Shown: piece after piece, positions 53,100-63,402 of the stretch
Layout of the letters: every line of letters begins with the position of its first letter
Numbering within the stretch: the first letter of the stretch is position 1
Source: Hyphomicrobiales bacterium
GTDB lineage: Bacteria > Pseudomonadota > Alphaproteobacteria > Rhizobiales > Rhizobiaceae
Assembly (NCBI GenBank): GCA_017305935.1
Contig: JAFKJU010000034.1
Span: forward strand, 1 to 63,817
Length of the DNA: 63,817 nt
Direction: 5' to 3'
Translations under genes and position numbers: made by a program
The notes under the pieces: model-generated
What the model was told of the DNA's origin: nothing
The model's input: the letters and a program-made list of their open reading frames with translations, nothing else
The model's database searches: none

Positions 53100-56063
53100 T
53101 CAGGCAAGCAGCTTCTCGTTTTGGGGATCGTAGAAGACGGGGCTGCATAGACGCCCGGGCGTGAATTCGCCGCGCAAGCCGTTCCAGACCAGCACCTCCT
53201 CACCATGCCGCTCCGCGCCGCGACGCACCAGCGCAAGGCCGATGGTCGAGCCAAGATGCGGCGAATGGCAGCTGGAGGTGACATAGCCCTGGTCGTTTTC
53301 CAGCGCCGCCGCCGCATCCTTTTCGAGGATATGCGAGCCGGTGCGGAATATTGCCGCCGGATCGAGCGGGCGGATGCCGACCAGTTGATGGCGCTGCGGA
53401 TCGTTCAGGCCCGCGCGCTCCAGCATGCGTTTGCCGATGAAATCCGGCTTGGCGGCCGGAACCATTCTTGCAAAGCCGAGATCGCCGGGCGTCACCGTGC
53501 CGTTGATTTCGTTGTGGGTGACATGGCCCTTCTCGATGCGCAGCACCGCCAGCGCCTCGACGCCATAGGGCTGGATGCCGTGGTCGCGGCCGGCCTCCAT
53601 GATCGCATCGGCCACCGCCTCGCCGTAACCGGCCGGCACCGCCAGTTCATAGGCCAGCTCGCCGGAAAACGAGATGCGGAACAGTCGGCCCTGCACCTGC
53701 CCGTTAAACAGCGAGACCTCGGCGGCGGCGAGGAACGGGAAGGCGGCATTGGAAAGATCGGCATCGACGATGGTTTCGAGGATTTTGCGTGCTTTCGGTC
53801 CTGCAATTGCCATCTGCGACCACTGGTCGGTGACCGAGGCGAGGCGCACGTCGAGATCCGGCCACAAAGCCTGGGCACAGAATTCGAGATGGTTCATGAC
53901 GCCGGATGCATAGGCCGTGGTCGTGGTCATGAAATAGCGGTCTTGCGCCAGCCGGCTGGTGGTGCCGTCGTCATAGATGAAACCGTCCTCGCGCAGCATC
54001 AACCCGTAGCGGGCCTTGCCCACCGGCAGTTTCAGGAAGGCGTTGCAATAGACCCGGTTCAGGAATTCGGCGGCATCCTTGCCGGTGATCTCGATCTTGC
54101 CGAGCATGGAGACGTCGCAAAGCCCGGCATTGATCCTCACATTTTTCGTCTCGCGCGCGACGCTCTCCCGCCAGTCCGTTTCGCCATCGCGCGGAAACCA
54201 GGCGGAGCGATACCACAGGCCGGTCTCGACGAAGACCGCGCCGTGTTTCTCGGCCCAGCCATGCAGGGGCGATTTGCGCACCGGCTGGAAATGGCGGCCA
54301 TGCGACGGCCCGGCCAGCGCTCCGAAGGAAACAGGGGTATAGAAGGGTCGGAAGGTGGTCGTGCCGACCTCTGCCGGCGAAACGCCGCGCGCCTCGGCCA
54401 GCAGCGCGATGGCGTTGACATTGGAGAGTTTGCCCTGGTCGGTGGCCATGCCGGTGGTCGTATAGCGCTTGGCAAGCTCCACATGGCCATAGCCTTCGCG
54501 CACGGCAAGCCCGAGATCCTTGCGGTGGACGTCGTTCTGGTAGTCGACGAAAGCCTTGCCGCGTATGCCGGGGATCGTCCACAGCGGCCGCGCCGGCATC
54601 GGGGCGATTTCGCCGGCAGTCAGCCCGAAGGCTGGCTTTTCGGCCTTGAAGCCGAACGTTTCCGCCAGTGCTGCGCCCTTGGCCGCGCCATCTTCCAGGC
54701 AGGCAGCGATACCGTCGATGCCGGCGGCCGATCCGATGAGAGACAGTCCTTGCAGGCCTGAAGGTGCCATGAAGGCGGATTTCTCGTCGGACCAGTGCGG
54801 CTTGCCGCCGCGATGGCAGGCGAGATGGATGATCGGGCTGAAGCCGCCGGACATGGCAAGCGCATCGACGCGCAGCCTCTCGGTCTTCCCGCCGGCGGCA
54901 ATGGTGATCGAGGTTAGCGCTTTGCCGCCATGGGCATCGCGCACCACGCCGCCTCGAACGATCCGCGCAGCACCTGCGTAATCGATGCCGCCTTCGGGGC
55001 GGCTGTCGATGATCGTGACCTGCGAGACGCCTGCCGTTTCCAGGTCGCGGGCCAGTGCGTAGCCGCTGTCGTTGATGGTGAAAATCGCCACCTGCCGGCC
55101 TGGCGCAACACCGTAGCGGTTGAGATAGCAGCGCATGGCGCCGGCCATCATCACGCCAGGAATGTCGTTTCCGCCGAAGACCAGCGGCCGTTCCTCGGCC
55201 CCGGTGGCAAGCAGCGCCTGCTTGGCGACGATGCGCCACAGACGCTCGACTGGCCGATGCGCATCGGGATGAGCAAGATGTTTCTGCACCCGCTCGACCG
55301 CGCCGAAGACATTGCCGTCATACCAGCCGAAGACGGTGGTGCGCGGCAGGATGGTGACGTTTTCCAGCGCCGCAAGTTCGGCCAGCAGATCGGCGGCGAA
55401 GGCGGGGGCGGATTTGCCGCCGATGCCTGCCGTTTCCGAGAGCAGGCCGCCGCCCGGCTGCGCATGTTCGTCGGCAAGGATCACCCGCGCGCCGGCGCGG
55501 CCGGCGCCAAGGGCTGCGGCAAGGCCGGCCGCACCGGCGCCGATGACCAGCAGGTCGCAATGCGCCCAGCTTTTTTCGTAGGCATCCGGGTCCGCCTCAT
55601 GGGTGGCGCGGCCGAGGCCGGCGGCGCGGCGGATGAAGGGCTCGTAGACCTTCTCCCAGAAGGCGGCCGGCCACATGAACGTCTTGTAGTAGAAGCCGGC
55701 GCCGAGGAAGGGTGACAGCAGGCTGTTGAGGCTGCCGATATCGACATCGAGCGACGGCCAGCGGTTCTGGCTCTTCGCCTCCAGCCCTTCGTAAAGCTCC
55801 TGCATGGTGGCGCGGGTGTTCGGCTCGGTGCGGCCGTCGCGACCGATGGTAACAAGCGCGTTCGGCTCCGCCGCGCCGGCCGTCAGGATGCCGCGCGGGC
55901 GGTGATATTTGAAACTGCGGCCGACCAGCAGCCGGCCATTGGCCAGCAGCGCCGAGGCGAGGCTGTCGCCGGCAAAGCCTTGCAAGGCCTGCCCATCGAA
56001 GGAAAAGGAAACCGGCGTGCTGCGGTCGATCAGGCCGCCCTGGGGGAGACGATAAGGGGTCAT
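53100..56063 (-). CDS. soxA: Sarcosine oxidase alpha subunit
   Basis: 987 residues, normal for SoxA. In order: 2Fe2S-like fold part without cluster (1-90; FSFDGQALQGFAGDSLASAL, FKYHRPRG), NAD-binding Rossmann domain (LLVIGAGAAGLAAALGAGRA, about 170), a second dinucleotide fold, and a C-terminal aminomethyltransferase (GcvT)-like THF-binding domain (about 600-985). THF accepts the methyl-derived carbon. ATG at 56063; overlaps soxD (ATGA). Confidence 0.95.
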   Translation of the reverse strand: MTPYRLPQGGLIDRSTPVSFSFDGQALQGFAGDSLASALLANGRLLVGRSFKYHRPRGILTAGAAEPNALVTIGRDGRTEPNTRATMQELYEGLEAKSQNRWPSLDVDIGSLNSLLSPFLGAGFYYKTFMWPAAFWEKVYEPFIRRAAGLGRATHEADPDAYEKSWAHCDLLVIGAGAAGLAAALGAGRAGARVILADEHAQPGGGLLSETAGIGGKSAPAFAADLLAELAALENVTILPRTTVFGWYDGNVFGAVERVQKHLAHPDAHRPVERLWRIVAKQALLATGAEERPLVFGGNDIPGVMMAGAMRCYLNRYGVAPGRQVAIFTINDSGYALARDLETAGVSQVTIIDSRPEGGIDYAGAARIVRGGVVRDAHGGKALTSITIAAGGKTERLRVDALAMSGGFSPIIHLACHRGGKPHWSDEKSAFMAPSGLQGLSLIGSAAGIDGIAACLEDGAAKGAALAETFGFKAEKPAFGLTAGEIAPMPARPLWTIPGIRGKAFVDYQNDVHRKDLGLAVREGYGHVELAKRYTTTGMATDQGKLSNVNAIALLAEARGVSPAEVGTTTFRPFYTPVSFGALAGPSHGRHFQPVRKSPLHGWAEKHGAVFVETGLWYRSAWFPRDGETDWRESVARETKNVRINAGLCDVSMLGKIEITGKDAAEFLNRVYCNAFLKLPVGKARYGLMLREDGFIYDDGTTSRLAQDRYFMTTTTAYASGVMNHLEFCAQALWPDLDVRLASVTDQWSQMAIAGPKARKILETIVDADLSNAAFPFLAAAEVSLFNGQVQGRLFRISFSGELAYELAVPAGYGEAVADAIMEAGRDHGIQPYGVEALAVLRIEKGHVTHNEINGTVTPGDLGFARMVPAAKPDFIGKRMLERAGLNDPQRHQLVGIRPLDPAAIFRTGSHILEKDAAAALENDQGYVTSSCHSPHLGSTIGLALVRRGAERHGEEVLVWNGLRGEFTPGRLCSPVFYDPQNEKLLA

Positions 56064-56332
56064 GCGCGCACCTCGCGGCCCTCGGCGGCGTCGCGGCTGT
56101 CGAAGACGTCGTGGGTCGCCGTGTCGCGGGTGACAATCAGCCAGCGGCGGCAACCGGAGGTGTGGTGCCAGTATTCCGCATAGGCGCCGCGTGGATTGTC
56201 GCGCAGATAGACGTAGTCGAACCAGACGTCAGGGGAAGCATCGGGTGCCGGCCGCGCCTGCGCCGCGCCCTTGACGGTGAATTCTTCGCGCGGCCTTGGG
56301 CCGCAATGCGGGCAGGGGAGGAGGCTGGCCAT
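56060..56332 (-). CDS. soxD: Sarcosine oxidase delta subunit
   Basis: 90 residues. Zinc-binding residues CPHCG near the N-terminus, with later His and Cys (WHHTSGC), and DVWFDYVYLRDNPRG define the SoxD family. It is a structural subunit of heterotetrameric sarcosine oxidase. Start at 56332; AAGGA eight bases upstream. Overlaps soxA and is separated from soxB by an intergenic repeat. Confidence 0.93.
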   Translation of the reverse strand: MASLLPCPHCGPRPREEFTVKGAAQARPAPDASPDVWFDYVYLRDNPRGAYAEYWHHTSGCRRWLIVTRDTATHDVFDSRDAAEGREVRA

Positions 56333-56350
56333 CAAGTATGTCCTTCGAGA

Positions 56351-56452
56351 GAGCATTTCCAGGAAAACTGCGTAATGGCTTTCCGGCCGGAAGTGCGTAA
56401 AAACAAAGGGATAGAGCGCTTTCGCGACTCGAGGAGAAGCGAAAATGCTCCA
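56351..56452. repeat. Rhizobial intergenic repeat within the sox operon
   Basis: About 100 bases bounded by the inverted ends GAGCATTT and AAATGCTC, containing TTCCGGCCGGAA and GCGTAAAAACAAAGGGATAG. I recognise this family from rhizobial intergenic DNA; a decayed relative lies at 10431-10496. It occupies almost the whole soxB-soxD gap. Confidence 0.6.
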
Positions 56453-56458
56453 GGCGGA

Positions 56459-57709
56459 TCAGTGGAGGTTCGGCTGGGCGCCCTGGCCCTTTTCGTCGAT
56501 GAGATAGCCGCGTTCGAAACGGTCGAGGCGCATCTGCCGCGCCGTCGGATGCGGGGCGTCCTTGGCCAGCAGGTGGGCGAAGCAGAAGCCGGAGGCCGGC
56601 GTCGCCTTGAAGCCGCCATAGCACCAGCCGGCATTGAGATAGAGATTGTCGAGCGGCGTGCGGTCGATGATCGGCGAGCCGTCCATCGACATATCCATGA
56701 CGCCGCCCCAGGCGCGCAGCACGCGGATGCGCGACAAAGCGGGGATCATCGCCTTGCCGGCCTCGGCGACATGCTCGACGGTCGCGAGGTTGCCGCGCTG
56801 GGCATAGGAATTATAGCCGTCGATATCGCCGCCGAACACCAGCCCGCCCTTGTCGGACTGGGACACGTAAAAATGCCCGGCGCCGAAGGTGACGACGCCG
56901 TCGATGAACGGTTTCAGCCCCTCCGAGACGAAGGCCTGCAGCACGTGGCTTTCGAGCGGCAGCTTCATGCCGGCCATTTCCGCGACCTGCGAGGAATTAC
57001 CGGCTGCCGCCAGCCCCAGCTTGCCGCAGCCGATGAAACCCTTCGTCGTCTCGACTCCGGTGACGCGACCGTTCTCGCGGCGGATGCCGGTGACCTCGCA
57101 ATTCTGGATGATATCGACGCCTCTCCCATCCGCGCCGCGTGCATAACCCCAGGCGACGCCGTCATGGCGCACGGTGCCGCCACGCCGTTGCAGCAGCCCG
57201 CCCTGAATCGGAAAGCGGGCATTGTCGAAATCGAGAAAGGGCAGCATGGTTTTGACGGCGGCGCGGTCGAGCAGTTCCGCATCGACGCCGTGCAGGCGCA
57301 TGGCATTGCCGCGCCGGGTATAGGCGTCGCGCTGCGCATCCGAATGATAGAGGTTCAGTACGCCGCGCTGGGAGACCATGGCGTTGAAGTTGAAATCCTG
57401 CTCCAGTCCTTCCCAGAGCTTCATCGAGAATTCGTAGAAGGGATTGTTGCCTTCCAGCAGATAGTTGGAGCGAATGATCGTCGTGTTGCGCCCGACATTG
57501 CCGGAGCCGATATAGTTCTTCTCCAGCACCGCGACGTTGGTGATACCGAACTCCCTGGCGAGATAATAAGCCGTCGCCAGCCCATGCCCGCCGCCACCGA
57601 CGATGACCACGTCGTAATGCAGCTTGGGCTGCGGTTCGCGCCAGGCGGCGCCCCAGTTCCTGTTGCCCTTCAGGCCGTTCAAAAAGATCGAAAAAGCGGA
57701 GTAGCGCAC
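56459..57709 (-). CDS. soxB: Sarcosine oxidase beta subunit
   Basis: 416 residues: DAO-type FAD domain with VVIVGGGGHGLATAYYLARE (about 35) and the covalent FMN/substrate region GNVGRNTTIIRSNYL (about 70-85). Start GTG at 57709 gives the family N-terminus (RYSAFSIFLNGLKGNRNWG), and GAGG precedes it. Oxidises sarcosine; first gene of soxBDAG and divergent from a GbdR-like regulator gene. Confidence 0.95.
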   Translation of the reverse strand: MRYSAFSIFLNGLKGNRNWGAAWREPQPKLHYDVVIVGGGGHGLATAYYLAREFGITNVAVLEKNYIGSGNVGRNTTIIRSNYLLEGNNPFYEFSMKLWEGLEQDFNFNAMVSQRGVLNLYHSDAQRDAYTRRGNAMRLHGVDAELLDRAAVKTMLPFLDFDNARFPIQGGLLQRRGGTVRHDGVAWGYARGADGRGVDIIQNCEVTGIRRENGRVTGVETTKGFIGCGKLGLAAAGNSSQVAEMAGMKLPLESHVLQAFVSEGLKPFIDGVVTFGAGHFYVSQSDKGGLVFGGDIDGYNSYAQRGNLATVEHVAEAGKAMIPALSRIRVLRAWGGVMDMSMDGSPIIDRTPLDNLYLNAGWCYGGFKATPASGFCFAHLLAKDAPHPTARQMRLDRFERGYLIDEKGQGAQPNLH

Positions 57710-57799
57710 GGGCCGAACCTCGAAAAATGTCGGCTTACCCTACCAAGGGGTTTGCGCAGCAGATTGCATGAATGGGCCGGATTGGTATAGAAAAAGGCC

Positions 57800-58783
57800 A
57801 TGGCATCGACGCAGATCAAGAACGTCCAGAAAATCGGCTTCCTGCTGGCGCCGAATTTCGCGCTGATGTCCTATGCCGCGGCGACCGAGCCATTGCGGGC
57901 GGCGAACCTGATCGCCGGCATCGATCTTTATGAGGTCGTGCCGCTTTCGGTCGATGGCGGCGCGGTCAGCGCCTCCTCGGGCATGTCCATCGCCTGTGCC
58001 GATCTGGCCGTCGCCGGGCCGGCCTGCCATACGGTGTTCGTCTGCGCCGGCGGCGGCCCGCGAGACTGGGTGGCGATGGCGGCGGCATATGGACCGCTGC
58101 GGCGGCTGGCGCGGCAGGGGGTGCGCATCGGCGGCATTTCCAGCGGCGCCTATATCCTTGCCGCCGCCGGCCTGCTCGACAACCGGGATTTCACCATCCA
58201 CTGGGAACATGCCGACGTGCTGAAGGAAGCCTTTGCGCATCTGACGCCGCGTCAGGCGCGCTACGTTCTCGATGGCGACCGCGTCACCTGCGCCGGCGGC
58301 GTCGCGCCGCTCGACATGATGCATGCGATGATCGCCGGGCGCATGGGTTCGCATTTCGCCCGCCGGGTCAGCGACTGGTATCTGCATACCGGCGTCGCCG
58401 CGCCCGGCGCGCCGCAGCGCGGCTCCGCCCCGGAACGGCACGGCACCCACCATCCGGCGCTGCTGACGATCCTCGAAAAGATGGAGGCGACCGTCGAGCA
58501 GCCGCTCGACCGCCGCGCCATGGCGCGGCTTGCCGGCATCAGCATCCGCCATCTCGATCGCCTGTTTGCCGAGCACCTGCCGACCGGCTTTCTCGAAACC
58601 TACCGCAACATCCGCCTCGACCACGCGAAAAAACTGCTGGAGCAGAGCCCGCTGACCACGGCCGAAATCGCTTTCGCCACCGGCTTTTCCAGCGCCGGCC
58701 ATTTTTCCCGCGCGTTCAAGACCCGCTTCGCCATGACGCCCAGCGGTTTTCGCATGCGAGGTTTTACCGTCGGCGAAGATTAG
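57800..58783 (+). CDS. GlxA-family AraC regulator (GbdR-like)
   Basis: 327 residues: N-terminal DJ-1/PfpI-like glutamine-amidotransferase domain (about 10-185; IGFLLAPNFALMSYAAATEP, VCAGGG, ISSGAYILAAAGLL) and C-terminal AraC helix-turn-helices (about 225-320; RLAGISIRHLDRLFAEHLPT, FATGFSSAGHFSRAFKTRFA). In Pseudomonas the homologous GbdR senses glycine betaine/dimethylglycine and activates sarcosine oxidase genes. Divergent from soxB across 90 bases, which fits that job. Confidence 0.9.
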   Translation: MASTQIKNVQKIGFLLAPNFALMSYAAATEPLRAANLIAGIDLYEVVPLSVDGGAVSASSGMSIACADLAVAGPACHTVFVCAGGGPRDWVAMAAAYGPLRRLARQGVRIGGISSGAYILAAAGLLDNRDFTIHWEHADVLKEAFAHLTPRQARYVLDGDRVTCAGGVAPLDMMHAMIAGRMGSHFARRVSDWYLHTGVAAPGAPQRGSAPERHGTHHPALLTILEKMEATVEQPLDRRAMARLAGISIRHLDRLFAEHLPTGFLETYRNIRLDHAKKLLEQSPLTTAEIAFATGFSSAGHFSRAFKTRFAMTPSGFRMRGFTVGED

Positions 58784-59056: not shown

Positions 59057-59689
59057 ATGATCAATGCGACATTCACCAATGGCAGCTTTTTCACCGAACT
59101 GAGCCCGGACGAACGGGCGGGCTTCAAGCCGGGCTCGTGGCGCCTCGTCACCGTTCCTGCGGGAACGAAGCTGTTCAAGCTGAACGACAAGGGCCTCGTC
59201 AATCCCTTCAACGGCAAGGTGACGCCTTGGTGGTCGCCGATCGAGCCGTTCCTGGATGACAAGAAGGGTGCGCTCGCCACCTACCAGGATGCCATCGACC
59301 AGAATATGGACATGAGCCAGATCGTCCGCCACCTGTCGTCGGTGTGCATCGACTGGAACGAACTCACCGAATTCCAGCAGATCAGGCTGAACGAACCGGC
59401 CAAGGCCTTCTGGGGGACCTTCAATCCGATGCCGAAATTTTCCAACGCGCCGTGGAAGGTGTTCGCGCGCGACGGAAATCCGGATTCGAAGGCGACGCTG
59501 GCCAAGGTCAAGAAGATGAATTCCATCGAAAAGAAGGATGGCCTGCGCGAAAAGGCCAAGGTCGAAGGGCACCGCGATTCCTGGCAATTGTATATCCCGA
59601 ACCTGAAGCCGGAAAACTACACGGAATCGCCGATGATCCCGAGCTACAACATGGCCTCGATCGGTATCGCGCTCGGCTATATCAAGTAG
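59057..59689 (+). CDS. Hypothetical protein, 210 residues
   Basis: No family recognised. Soluble, no signal peptide, rich in Lys, Asn, Phe and Trp (about 3% Trp: PGSWRLVTVPAGTKLFKLND, VTPWWSPIEPF, AFWGTFNPMPKFSNAPWKVF), with codons as in the neighbours. ATG at 59057 has AAAAGGGG upstream; TTGACA at 58918 may belong to its promoter. Monocistronic. The aromatic-rich make-up could suit an effector or binding protein, but this is a guess. Confidence 0.75.
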   Translation: MINATFTNGSFFTELSPDERAGFKPGSWRLVTVPAGTKLFKLNDKGLVNPFNGKVTPWWSPIEPFLDDKKGALATYQDAIDQNMDMSQIVRHLSSVCIDWNELTEFQQIRLNEPAKAFWGTFNPMPKFSNAPWKVFARDGNPDSKATLAKVKKMNSIEKKDGLREKAKVEGHRDSWQLYIPNLKPENYTESPMIPSYNMASIGIALGYIK

Positions 59690-59776: not shown

Positions 59777-60199
59777 TCATCTGCGATCGCGCCGGAACGT
59801 CGGAAACAGCAGTAGCGTGCGGGTCTCTTTTCGCTGTTGTTGCCGGATCGATACCGGCGCCCGGCTCCATCCATCGCTTTCGTCCGCCGCGCAACAGGAT
59901 AGCGTCTGGCCGGATGAATTCGGTTCGGCATTCGGTGCGCCGTTCCCGTTTCCGTCGCTTCGGTATCCGTTGCCGTTCCCGCTTCCCGTGTTTCCATTGC
60001 CGTTATCGTTGCCGACATTGCCGTTGCCGTTGTCGTTTCCCGAATTTCCGTTGCCGTTGCCGTTTCCCACATTGCCATTGCCGTTGCCATTGCCGCTCCC
60101 GGCGAGAGCGGAACCGGTCGGGCCGAGAGCGAAAACGAGCGACGCGACAATAAGCAGGACATGTGGCGCGCAGCCGGGGATGGGTCGGTCGTCGGTCAA
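59777..60199 (-). CDS. Secreted Gly-Asn repeat protein A, 140 residues
   Basis: Signal-peptide-like segment 10-33 (HVLLIVASLVFALGPTGSAL), then about 45 residues of nearly pure Gly and Asn in GNGN and GNxN units with Asp, Val or Ser, then a different tail with two adjacent Cys (TLSCCAADESDGW) and an Arg-rich end. The start is TTG at 60199, overlapping the upstream stop (TTGA) with GGGGA before it; no ATG is available. Third gene of a tandem set. Function unknown; secretion and extended or amyloid-like structure are inferred from composition. Confidence 0.6.
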   Translation of the reverse strand: MTDDRPIPGCAPHVLLIVASLVFALGPTGSALAGSGNGNGNGNVGNGNGNGNSGNDNGNGNVGNDNGNGNTGSGNGNGYRSDGNGNGAPNAEPNSSGQTLSCCAADESDGWSRAPVSIRQQQRKETRTLLLFPTFRRDRR

Positions 60200-60645
60200 T
60201 TGTGATTCCCCACGCCGTTATAATTGCCGTTGAATGCGCCGATATTGCCGTTGCCGTTGAACAGTCCGCCGTTGAAATTGCCGTTGAAGGAGCCGGTATT
60301 GTGATTGCCGCTGGTGGAGGAGGCATTGTTGTTGCCGTTGAAGGCGCCGACATTGCCGGTTCCGCTGTTGAAGGCGCCGACATTGCCGGTTCCCGAATTG
60401 AAGGCGCCGAGATTGCCGCCTGTCGCGAAAACGCCGTTGCCGTTGCCGTTCCCATTGCCGTTGCCGATGCCGATATTGGCGTTGCCGTTCGAGTTCCCGT
60501 TTCGGAAGCCGACATTGCCGTTGCCATTGCCGTTGCCGTTACCGATCCCGGCGGCCATTGCCCCGTTCGTCAGGGGCGCTTCGAGAGAAGCGGAAAGCCC
60601 GCATAGCAGCGCCGCTGCCAATATTCGCGTGAAGGTGAGTCCCAT
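60196..60645 (-). CDS. Secreted Gly-Asn repeat protein B, 149 residues
   Basis: Signal peptide about 1-31 (MGLTFTRILAAALLCGLSAS, cleavage near MAA-GI), GNGN-rich part (about 32-70), then longer units such as GAFNSGTGNV repeated and FNGNFNGG, ending GVGNHN. The N-x-G-x-x-N spacing recalls pentapeptide-2/MPTR-type repeats of mycobacterial PPE proteins, but no such domain is intact. ATG at 60645 with GGAGGAAA. Middle gene of the trio. Confidence 0.72.
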   Translation of the reverse strand: MGLTFTRILAAALLCGLSASLEAPLTNGAMAAGIGNGNGNGNGNVGFRNGNSNGNANIGIGNGNGNGNGNGVFATGGNLGAFNSGTGNVGAFNSGTGNVGAFNGNNNASSTSGNHNTGSFNGNFNGGLFNGNGNIGAFNGNYNGVGNHN

Positions 60646-60669
60646 TGCAGTTTCCTCCGATGACAAAAC

Positions 60670-60707
60670 GGGACCATCGATACGCTCGTACAGGAAGCGA
60701 TGGTCCC
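60670..60707 (-). terminator. Hairpin between Gly-Asn repeat genes C and B (attenuator-like)
   Basis: 10-base perfect arms GGGACCATCG / CGATGGTCCC with an 18-base loop, then GTTTTG on the minus strand. It lies between the first and second genes of the trio and could reduce read-through to B and A. Confidence 0.5.
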
Positions 60708-60720
60708 AACCGTGAAGCGG

Positions 60721-61137
60721 TCAGTGGTTGCCGTTGCCGTTGAAGTTGCCGTTGAACCCGCCGCGGTTGCTGCCGCCGTTGCCGTTGCCATTGCCAAGGC
60801 CGCGATTGCCGTTGCCGTTGACGTTGCCGTTGCCGAAACCGAGGTTGCTGTTGCCGTTCATATTGCCGTTGCCGAAGCCGCCATTGCTGTTGCCGTTCAG
60901 GTTCCCGTTGCCGATGCCCCAGTTGCCGTTGCCGTTGAGGTTGCCGTTGCCGATGCCCCAGTTGCCGTTGCCATTGCCATTGCCGTTGAGAGCGCCGACA
61001 TTGCTGTTGCCGTTACCGTTGCCGTTGCCGATCCCGAGATTGCCGTTGCCGTTGCCATTGCCGCTTCCCACCGAGGCGGCTTCGGCATAGCCGGAGAGGG
61101 CGAGAACTGCGACCGAGACGAGGATCCACTTTTTCAT
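60721..61137 (-). CDS. Secreted Gly-Asn repeat protein C, 138 residues
   Basis: Signal peptide MKKWILVSVAVLALSGYAEA, mature part almost entirely Gly and Asn with periodic hydrophobics: units such as GNWGIGNGNLNGN, GNMNGNSNLGFGN, ending FNGNFNGNGNH. About one aromatic or aliphatic residue every 10-12 positions suggests a beta-helical or amyloid-like stack. AAGGAGAA precedes the ATG. First gene of the set; divergent from the sensor kinase gene. No family recognised with confidence. Confidence 0.75.
   Translation of the reverse strand: MKKWILVSVAVLALSGYAEAASVGSGNGNGNGNLGIGNGNGNGNSNVGALNGNGNGNGNWGIGNGNLNGNGNWGIGNGNLNGNSNGGFGNGNMNGNSNLGFGNGNVNGNGNRGLGNGNGNGGSNRGGFNGNFNGNGNH
60725..61065 (-). repeat. 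Hexanucleotide-rich coding repeat (GGCAAC units)
   Basis: Runs of GGCAAC, read as Gly-Asn, repeat with interruptions through gene C; similar runs occur at 59985-60095 and 60430-60545 in genes A and B. Slippage by six bases would keep the frame and change repeat length. Confidence 0.7.
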
Positions 61138-61375
61138 GACGTTCTCCTTCGTGAGTGTTGACTTGCGCGCCGGCGACCTTCGCTCGACAGCCGAATGATC
61201 GTCATTTCCCGAAAGCGCACAATTACGCGCGGCCTCCTGGCGTGTCGGATTGCTTGCCCGGTCCGTGTCAGGCATTTCCCTACATACCCTGCCGGATTAT
61301 TCTGCTAGTAGTTTGCGTCATGGACAGTGCATCGGGTGTATCAGGATCGCCGCCATCGTTTTGTGAGCAGACGAC

Positions 61376-62686
61376 ATGCCGCAAACCATTAAGCAAACCG
61401 ACGTCACGCGCAGGAAAGCAAGAAGATATCTTGCTATCGGTATAGTATCTCTGGTTTTGACCACAGTCTTTCTTTCAGGATATGTTCTATGGGAAATGGA
61501 TTTCGGCACGCCGAAGGATGCGGACGATTTTCTTCTCTGTGCGATCGTCATCCTGAATCCGGTGACGGCTTTCTGTCTGATGCAGGCCGGAAAAGAAATG
61601 GCCAAGGTGGCCGCCAGCCGCTTGCGGGCGCAACAGGAGGCCGAACGCCAGAGGCTGCGGCTCGAAGCCATCATGGAACAGATGCCGGTGGGGATCGTCC
61701 TCGTCAACGCCGCGCACGACATGGTGCTTGCCAATGGCAGCTATTACGAGCTGTTCCAGATCGAGCACGAGCTGGCGGTGGCAACGAAATCGCGCGGTCG
61801 CCTGAACCTCCACACGCCGGATGGTGACGTCTATCCCCTGGAGCGATGGCCAGGGTCGCGCGTGCTCGCCACCGGCCGGCCGGTGCTCAACGAGGAGCTT
61901 TTCGTCGAGAGGACGGACGGCAAGAGAATCTACCTCCTCGTCAATGCCGCGCCGATCGTCGATTCCTCGGGAGATACAAGCGTCGTCGTCACCTATTGCG
62001 ATATCACCGATCGCAAGATCGCCGAGGAAAACAACAATATACTGCTGCGGCGGGTCCTCGGCGCCCAGGAGGAGGAGCGCCTCAGGATAGCGCGCGAACT
62101 GCACGACCAAATCGGTCAGGACCTGACGGTTCTCTCGCTCGGGCTGAAGACGCTTGAAACTTCGGCGGACCGGGCTCAAACTGAGCGGATCAGGGGATTG
62201 CGCCATGCGGTCGGCCTGATGGACGATCATGTGCGCCACCTGACCGCCTCGCTCCGGCCGTTGACGTTGAGCGATCTCGGACTCAGCCGCGCGCTGGAGG
62301 ATCTGGTCAACGACTGGGGCAAGCGGCTTGGAATTCGCGTGGGCACCGATCTGCATGCGCTCGATATCGAAATCTCGGAACTCGCCAGCATCGTCATCTA
62401 CCGCGTCGTTCAGGAGGCAATCACCAACATCGCCAAGCATGCCCATGCATCCACATTAAGAGTGGCCGCCAGACGCTCCGGCTCCGTGCTGAGGGTCGTC
62501 GTCAGCGATGACGGCGCAGGCTTCGAGGCCGGCCCGCTGCAGAACATATCCGGAAAATGTTTCGGTCTTGCCGGAATGTCGGAGCGATTGTCGATGATCG
62601 GGGGGGCACCTGCGCATCGAGAGCCATATTGGAAAAGGAACCGATGTCGTCGCCTCGGTTCCGTTAAAAATGGTGTTGAACGATGA
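61376..62686 (+). CDS. Sensor histidine kinase, NarL/HisKA_3 type, frame disturbed near C-terminus
   Basis: Two N-terminal membrane helices (about 18-38 and 52-70), a PAS domain (about 95-215), a HisKA_3 dimerisation domain with the phospho-accepting His243 in ARELHDQIGQ, and a HATPase with N box AITNIAKHAHAS and DDGAGF. After Gly410 the frame reads APAHREPYWKRNRCRRL instead of the expected G2 box. One base earlier in frame, after the run of seven G at 62600-62606, HLRIESHIGKGTDVVASVPL is encoded to a stop at 62720. The annotated stop overlaps the regulator ATG. Partner: the response regulator that follows. Confidence 0.85.
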   Translation: MPQTIKQTDVTRRKARRYLAIGIVSLVLTTVFLSGYVLWEMDFGTPKDADDFLLCAIVILNPVTAFCLMQAGKEMAKVAASRLRAQQEAERQRLRLEAIMEQMPVGIVLVNAAHDMVLANGSYYELFQIEHELAVATKSRGRLNLHTPDGDVYPLERWPGSRVLATGRPVLNEELFVERTDGKRIYLLVNAAPIVDSSGDTSVVVTYCDITDRKIAEENNNILLRRVLGAQEEERLRIARELHDQIGQDLTVLSLGLKTLETSADRAQTERIRGLRHAVGLMDDHVRHLTASLRPLTLSDLGLSRALEDLVNDWGKRLGIRVGTDLHALDIEISELASIVIYRVVQEAITNIAKHAHASTLRVAARRSGSVLRVVVSDDGAGFEAGPLQNISGKCFGLAGMSERLSMIGGAPAHREPYWKRNRCRRLGSVKNGVER

Positions 62687-63402
62687 CAAGACAAACGACA
62701 TCCCGGTTGCTGATTGTTGACGACCATCCTCTCATTCTCTCGGGAATTCAGGCGCTGCTGGAAGGGCAGGCCGATCTCGACGTGATCGGCACCGCCCAGA
62801 CCGCGCATGCGGCCCTGGAGGCGATCAGGCTCTGCCGTCCCGATCTGGTCATTGCCGACGGCACCTTGCCCGACATGAGCGGGATAACCCTGGTGCGGCG
62901 CATCCGGGAAACCTGCCCCGGCATCCTGACGCTGGCGCTGACGCTGCACGACGAAGGCCCCTATATCCGGGAATTCGTCAAAGCGGGCGTCAATGGCTTC
63001 GTCCTGAAGCGCTCGGCGGCGGAGGATCTGCTGCATGCCGTCCGCGCCGTCCTGCATGGCGGAACCTATATCGATCCCGCCGTCATGTCGAAGATCTGCT
63101 CGATCGTTCCGGACAACGCGATCCAGACGGACGTGCTGAGCGAACGCGAGGAATGCGTCGTCCGCCTGGTGGCGGAAGGTTTCAGCAACAAGGAAATTTC
63201 CCGCCGCCTGGCGGTCAGCGTCAAGACGATCGAAACCTACCGGGCGCGCGCCTGCGAAAAACTCGGCATCCACAACCGCGCCGCCCTCGTGCGCCACGCC
63301 CTGAAGGAAGGCTGGCTGGCGCAGAACATATTGCCATCCGACTACACGGTCGCGAGCGTCGAGACCGGCCGGCTGTACTCGCCGTTGCGGGCCCGCCCGT
63401 GA
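62683..63402 (+). CDS. LuxR/NarL-type response regulator
   Basis: 239 residues: receiver domain (about 5-125) with acidic pocket Asp13-Asp14, phospho-acceptor Asp59 (PDLVIADG) and conserved Lys in VLKRS; LuxR helix-turn-helix (about 150-215; LSEREECVVRLVAEGFSNKE, RLAVSVKTIETYRARACEKL). ATG overlaps the kinase stop. Likely targets are the adjacent Gly-Asn repeat genes or distant ones; inference by proximity. Confidence 0.92.
   Translation: MTRQTTSRLLIVDDHPLILSGIQALLEGQADLDVIGTAQTAHAALEAIRLCRPDLVIADGTLPDMSGITLVRRIRETCPGILTLALTLHDEGPYIREFVKAGVNGFVLKRSAAEDLLHAVRAVLHGGTYIDPAVMSKICSIVPDNAIQTDVLSEREECVVRLVAEGFSNKEISRRLAVSVKTIETYRARACEKLGIHNRAALVRHALKEGWLAQNILPSDYTVASVETGRLYSPLRARP

Follow-up and report, generated by a model that had tools for sequence, protein, structure and literature searches.

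Three tandem Gly-Asn repeat genes as a candidate extracellular polymer system of Alphaproteobacteria

Three consecutive genes, here called C, B, and A, encode small, exported-looking proteins rich in glycine and asparagine, and are kept together across several bacterial families. The reading that accounts best for the cluster is a regulated, secreted β-repeat surface polymer that resembles curli in its logic, a reading to which we give about even confidence because every step between regulation and polymer is inferred. Secreted repeat polymers govern the attachment and biofilm building of soil and root bacteria and, to our knowledge, few classes of them have been recognized. A conserved three-gene set that has its own switch in many carriers, and a repeat lying outside the curated families searched, is a testable candidate for another such class.

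The window, by which we mean the whole 63,817-nucleotide stretch of DNA that was analyzed, is contig C64 of a 6.5 Mb genome assembled in 108 contigs (G000). At its right end three co-directional genes on the minus strand, C first and then B and A, exactly fill positions 59777–61137. The features discussed below are as follows.

59777–60199, minus strand: gene A, with a TTG start, a signal-peptide-like beginning, a short Gly-Asn (GN) region, and an Arg-rich tail with Cys-Cys; proposed as a terminal or surface-contact subunit
60196–60645, minus strand: gene B, with a signal-peptide-like beginning, GN repeats, five tandem XNXGX pentapeptides, and a block containing NASSTSGNHN; proposed as a minor or nucleating subunit
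60670–60707, minus strand: hairpin with a perfect 10-bp stem between C and B (z = −2.23 against dinucleotide shuffles)
60721–61137, minus strand: gene C, with a signal-peptide-like beginning followed by eight 13-residue repeats of XNXGX plus xNGNxNGN; proposed major subunit
61266–61280, plus strand: TGTCAGGCATTTCCC, candidate operator in the divergent intergenic region between C and the kinase gene
61376–62686, plus strand: histidine kinase (PAS, HisKA_3, and HATPase_c, Pfam matches over cut-offs), divergent from the trio
62683–63402, plus strand: LuxR/NarL-type response regulator (Response_reg and GerE, Pfam matches over cut-offs)

Gene reality and repeat anatomy

The preliminary description of this DNA had proposed three secreted Gly-Asn repeat proteins encoded in tandem, and both the translations and their composition agree with that proposal. 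Glycine and asparagine make up 33% and 31% of the full-length product of gene C, 27% and 26% of that of gene B, and 19% and 16% of that of gene A, and each protein starts with a hydrophobic stretch that, judged by eye, resembles a signal peptide. The overlap claimed for A and B amounts to 4 nt, with the stop codon of B lying within a TTGA that overlaps the TTG start of A, and the ribosome site claimed for C corresponds to a purine-rich site upstream of that gene, with a similar one upstream of B.

Both strands carry long open frames over the repeats, as would be expected if the region were simple-repeat DNA with no genes in it, and we therefore compared the trio with the syntenic trio of a same-genus relative (G001), which served as the reference for dN/dS. 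Identical residues number 105 of 125 aligned for C, 123 of 149 for B, and 84 of 140 for A. In the coding frame dN/dS is 0.143 for C, 0.117 for B, and 0.208 for A, similar to the values for the neighboring kinase (0.149) and regulator (0.089). In antisense, just one of the three frames per trio gene falls below 0.9, at 0.34–0.45. Set against the coding-frame values, these antisense values mean that the long antisense ORFs with PLPL and AVAV runs are best read as by-products. Together with a gene order that is kept across families, the coding-frame values of 0.12–0.21 indicate that C, B, and A are real genes and contradict the simple-repeat explanation, which we find hardly credible.

The hydrophobic residue previously placed at every 10–12 positions gives way, for C, to a regular repeat of 13 residues, in which an XNXGX pentapeptide is followed by the octapeptide xNGNxNGN. 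The identity autocorrelation of C is highest at lags of 13 (z = 11.3) and 26 (z = 9.8) residues, the protein contains six exact consecutive XNXGXxNGNxNGN units compared with a maximum of one in 2000 shuffles, and an alignment of C proteins from eight genomes has invariant Gly columns every 13 residues. Gene B instead carries its five XNXGX pentapeptides in direct tandem, a run equaled by one of 2000 shuffles; the longest such run in C and in A is one, leaving B alone among the three with tandem pentapeptides. The block that follows the run in B occurs in its TSGN form in nine of the 13 B loci, as an SSGN variant in G203 and G004, and in neither form in the B loci of G133 and G313. The Cys-Cys and Arg-rich tail of A had been suggested to act as an anchor or cap. 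As a general role this is not supported, because the tails of A vary between genera: this one is common to G000 and G001 only, and other genera carry others.

No family had been recognized for these proteins from the letters, and none emerged from the searches, with zero Pfam or NCBIfam matches for C, B, or A at E up to 1. The PHROGs collection has no match for C or B; for A it gives two phage families whose function is unknown (E = 1.4e-5 and 0.0017), a likeness that probably stems from the GN region. Single-sequence AlphaFold2 prediction of C (pLDDT 58) placed short strands approximately every 13 residues and gave no usable fold, that of B (pLDDT 41) gave no fold, and a Foldseek search with the C model returned nothing significant (best E of 6). 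We place little weight on the predicted strands of C because AlphaFold2 is reported in a 2025 paper to predict unrealistic β-solenoids for repeat proteins (PMC11795689).

Distribution and control of the cluster

A search for homologous trios and their neighbors, proposed with the preliminary description, succeeded in 13 genomes from four families of a single taxonomic order, in which reading of the loci placed C, B, and A together at one locus. Eight of the genomes are from family f1 (G000, G001, G004, G133, G180, G203, G313, and G405), three are from f221 (G891, G919, and G965), and one each is from f16 (G1055) and f26 (G916). The genes form a co-directional C-B-A run in 12 of the 13, with an extra GN gene inside some of the runs; the exception is G004, where C, on the opposite strand, is separated from B and A by about 4 kb. 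Gene C has matches in 4 of 61 relatives and 9 of 394 same-family genomes, and the C profile in 9 of 397 genomes from the order and 6 of 398 from the phylum, in samples that overlap one another. Among 385 genomes of the class, gene B matched one, its own. C occurs alone, at a contig end, in G487, and the same-genus genome G002 gave no match in the C search and has no trio. A match in G095 (30% identity) was left out of the count, and two candidates were rejected as trio homologs: a Gly-Met-rich protein in G060 and a different GN-rich protein in G742.

In plasmid records searched for relatives, tblastn with C gave zero matches, a search in which the low-complexity filter may mask C. The same records held no match for the kinase of the window (E limit 1e-40), the kinase of G133 (1e-60), the LuxR-type protein of G891 (1e-40), or the YadA-type region described below (1e-20). 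A distant DNA search returned 37 matching records, and the five that were inspected hold other GN-containing genes and not the trio. Among the open-licence papers listed on Gly/Asn repeats, MPTR/PF01469, and rhizobial curli, no title or opening of an abstract mentions a trio of this kind.

GN-rich proteins also occur outside the clusters. The family-search matches include 11 solo GN genes in three g132 genomes (G133, G203, and G313; loci L052–L060 and L051), several of whose proteins end in His-rich C-terminal tails. Plasmids of Pseudorhizobium flavum and Bosea encode proteins with long GN tails (L067, 4268–5989; L070, 3836–5473), the Bosea gene being annotated as FecR family. Proteins on Ensifer/Sinorhizobium plasmids (L068, L069, and L071), which are unannotated in PLSDB, have N-terminal parts rich in Gln/Gly and Asn/Gly and a long Gly-rich remainder.

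Next to the trio in the window, positions 59060–59689 on the plus strand encode a 209-residue protein with no Pfam or NCBIfam match at E up to 1 and no PHROGs match at E up to 0.1. A scan of genome contigs gave it three relatives, in Shinella lacus (61% identity, the best among the matches listed), Microvirga, and a Rhodovarius MAG; none was seen beside the trio of G001, and GN genes are absent from the Shinella lacus locus around the relative. The region at ~53100–58783 resembles genes for sarcosine oxidase subunits and a GlxA-family (AraC-type) regulator on Rhizobium and Shinella plasmids, with 76–78% identity, and is ordinary metabolism. This identity, together with the Shinella lacus relative of 59060–59689, places the window in the Rhizobium group.

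The kinase and regulator genes that diverge from the trio overlap by 4 nt, and their domains (HisKA_3, HATPase_c, Response_reg, and GerE) and adjacency mark them as a two-component system. The best NCBIfam models for them are MctS and MctR (E = 5.4e-39 and 6.4e-48), with scores below the cut-offs of those models (133.8 bits against 700 for the kinase and 162.9 against 300 for the regulator), and we group the UhpB-like two-component systems of NCBIfam with MctS/MctR as the closest known to the pair. The kinase has an ortholog in G001 with 78% identity. A divergent, orthologous pair adjoins the trio in seven of the 13 genomes (G000, G001, G133, G180, G203, G313, and G405), identified by Pfam in both genes in G000, G133, G180, and G405, in the kinase only in G313, in the regulator only in G203, and otherwise by similarity. 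The trio-linked regulators of different genera are 46–56% identical, and their recognition helix is nearly invariant, reading SVKTIETYRARA or a close variant. The trio-linked kinase of G203 (L049, 7881–9229) reads as two overlapping frames, from an assembly error or a broken gene. No pair was seen among the selected ORFs at the other six trio loci. Pfam identifies a nearby LuxR-type gene with GerE and without a receiver domain in G004, G891, G965, and G1055, and these GerE-only proteins share just 17–24% identity with the pair-linked regulators. The corresponding gene of G919 looks similar to the protein of G891, and G916 has a protein with a weak likeness to a receiver, scoring 22.9 bits where the cut-off is 30.2, for which no HTH is reported.

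Within 300 bp upstream of C, the heptamer TGTCAGG (or CCTGACA) is present in all seven pair-linked clusters, and in 200 shuffles of these upstream regions no 7-mer was common to more than five. The relatedness of the sequences inflates this sharing, and with one sequence per genus the test weakens, so that 33–44 of 2000 shuffles also share some 7-mer. A stronger and partly independent check comes from the solo GN genes of the g132 genomes, six of 11 of which have TGTCAGG upstream, with the caveat that these genes are paralogous and may share ancestry. In the g132 loci, 4,200 upstream bases hold 12 complete copies (five at trios and seven at solo genes) and the other 149,086 bases hold 16, with one further copy straddling an edge. 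The heptamer is absent upstream of all seven other C genes (G891, G965, G919, G1055, G916, G487, and G004). A longer pattern, TGTCAGGNNTTNCCC, occurs once in the genome of the window, at the candidate operator between C and the kinase gene, and six times in six genomes, five of these upstream of GN genes, compared with one match for the reversed control pattern. As the pattern was derived from the sites that it then found, the five matches at GN genes are largely by construction, and it is mainly its scarcity elsewhere, one further match in the six genomes, that is informative. A promoter scan found none, against 0.5 in shuffles.

The hairpin that had been noticed after C is confirmed at 60670–60707 and tends to recur in the related clusters. 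The 75 nt after C give negative folding z-scores against dinucleotide shuffles in all seven pair-linked clusters (−0.92 to −3.69) and after seven further C genes (−1.18 to −4.01), so that z is negative in 14 of 14 cases but at or beyond −2 in only seven. The 75 nt after B in the pair-linked clusters range from −1.11 to 0.79, and control stretches of 75 nt upstream of C from −3.38 (in G180) to 1.6. The stem sequences after C differ between genera. Because the terminator scan found none on the strand of the trio (and two on the other strand, against 3.1 in shuffles), the hairpin may serve as a stabilizer or processing point.

The loci of G405 and G004 each encode a protein in which a GN region is followed by YadA-head repeats, with a gene for a small protein after it. 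The YadA_head matches score 27.1 bits in G405 and 28.4 in G004, against a cut-off of 25, and by sequence the YadA portion from G405 matches adhesin heads of solved structure, among them 7o23 (BpaC, E = 1.2e-17) and 1p9h (labeled Invasin, E = 3.5e-9). Both fusion proteins end in an aromatic residue, and their C termini appear anchor-like by eye; Pfam reports no anchor domain. Of nine genomes searched with the YadA part of G405, four have matches (G405, G004, and, weakly, G180 and G133); at an E limit of 0.001 the other five (G000, G001, G002, G203, and G313) gave none. That the loci of two relatives encode a protein joining GN repeats to a YadA head lends indirect support to a surface role for the trio.

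Proposed assembly and alternatives

In the polymer that we envisage, the kinase and LuxR-type regulator would switch the trio on through TGTCAGG between the divergent genes, as their linkage and co-occurrence suggest. The hairpin after C could allow this first gene of the run to be made in excess, and C, B, and A would be exported by the Sec pathway. Outside the inner membrane, the 13-residue units of C could stack as a β-roll or solenoid and polymerize into fibers or a matrix. B, with its own conserved block, may be a minor nucleating or linking subunit, and A, coupled to B, may sit at the end of the polymer or make contact with the surface, with a tail that differs from lineage to lineage. 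In some relatives, to judge from two genomes, a trimeric-autotransporter-like protein with GN repeats could provide the outer-membrane anchor.

Purifying selection on all three genes and a cluster shared by 13 genomes support the polymer module. The control part draws on the pair at seven of 13 trios, the near-invariant recognition helix, and the presence of TGTCAGG at seven of seven pair-linked clusters and six of 11 solo genes, and the hairpin tendency at 14 of 14 C genes and the YadA-head fusions of G405 and G004 add to the case as a whole. Against it we count the lack of CsgG in the genome of the window and of a usable AlphaFold2 fold, the weaker per-genus test of TGTCAGG, the fact that only seven of 14 hairpins reach a z of −2 and that one upstream control (G180) gives −3.38, the lack of a match to the fusion in G000, G001, and G002, the lack of a trio in G002, and the six of 13 trios at which no pair was seen.

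The extreme Gly and Asn content of the proteins would equally suit a secreted or periplasmic hydrogel-like matrix, in which largely disordered GN chains hold water or ions without ever assembling into ordered fibers. The failure of AlphaFold2 to give a confident fold, and of the search for an outer-membrane exporter (CsgG) to find one, are also as expected for such a matrix. However, the strict 13-residue register and the positions conserved across families exceed what composition alone would need, a separate and conserved B suggests defined roles, and two genomes join GN repeats to a YadA-type head in one protein, and we consider a hydrogel of this kind unlikely. The regular spacing of Asn in C also raises the idea of an ice-, ion-, or mineral-binding set whose recurring Asn side chains make up a flat face for binding, an arrangement already put forward for the NG repeats of pearlins from pearl shell. 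The His-rich tails of several g132 solo proteins would fit such a set, as would the Asn-Gly repeats of pearlins, which are hypothesized to regulate crystal growth (PMC7677314). In pearlins, though, the NG runs are short and the rest of the protein is different and Cys-rich, neither C nor B has a sequence match to a solved structure in the PDB at E up to 1, and a binding set would lead one to expect neither three genes together nor a YadA-head fusion, which makes this idea quite unlikely. Small, exported-looking proteins with a sporadic distribution and a regulator pair of the signal-response type could instead be soluble, non-assembling secreted factors, such as Gly-rich antimicrobial or host-interaction proteins. 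Assembly is the better fit for a single run of three repeat proteins conserved together and for the adhesin-head fusions, and we regard a soluble factor as very unlikely.

Relation to known repeat and surface systems

Pearlin, N14, and N16 resemble the trio in having Asn-Gly repeats, but they are acidic eukaryotic proteins, rich in Cys, whose NG domain is short (PMC7677314); the analogy is one of composition only. The likeness to trimeric autotransporters of the YadA type lies in the fusions of G405 and G004, where GN repeats precede the YadA head, whereas C, B, and A themselves have no YadA_head match.

A loose likeness to PPE-type repeats had been noted from the letters, and this was understated. 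The MPTR repeat unit of mycobacterial PPE proteins is the XNXGX pentapeptide, described in a 2016 paper as a repeat of unknown structure (PMC4858275). The five tandem XNXGX units of B resemble this repeat (Pentapeptide_2/MPTR, PF01469), and the fusion protein of the relative G405 passes the PF01469 cut-off (30.8 against 26.4 bits); that of G004 has no PF01469 match. On the other hand, PF01469 matches none of C, B, and A at E up to 1, a PPE domain is not reported for the trio, and in C an octapeptide interrupts each XNXGX. Elsewhere in the genome of the window, PF01469 has nothing over its cut-off and one weak match outside the trio (E = 0.81).

Curli consist of the secreted tandem-repeat subunits CsgA and CsgB, with CsgG and a LuxR-type regulator, CsgD, encoded beside the genes. 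The trio likewise groups genes for tandem-repeat subunits beside a LuxR-type regulator, a rough parallel to CsgD, but its repeat is unlike the curlin repeat. The likeness to curlin suggested earlier does not extend to the genome of the window, which has zero matches to Curlin_rpt (PF07012) at E up to 1, as do G001, G004, and G203, and zero to CsgG (PF03783), the sole outer-membrane route searched, at E up to 0.01; these absences rule out membership of the trio in curli there. CsgG is present in two of eight genomes (G004 and G405), and Curlin_rpt passes its cut-off elsewhere in the genomes G133, G313, and G405. In G916, two genes directly beyond A (L105, 5052–6077) have sub-threshold Curlin_rpt matches (18.1 against 20.7 bits).

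Because the trio itself lacks a defining feature, among those tested, of each of PF01469, curli, and trimeric autotransporters, we file it under no known family. The XNXGX repeat of mycobacterial MPTR proteins is thereby linked to exported proteins that are small and easy to express, and to others in which it precedes a trimeric-adhesin head, a link that could help to solve the fold of this repeat. It is possible, at somewhat below even confidence, that C-B-A is an undescribed alphaproteobacterial extracellular polymer system found in several families, with a major subunit built of the 13-residue XNXGX/xNGNxNGN repeat, a minor subunit of its own, and an end subunit that varies. Such a system would have its own regulator pair and operator in one branch and, in some members, a trimeric-autotransporter-like anchor built on the same repeats, and would be a counterpart of curli with a different repeat and a different export route.
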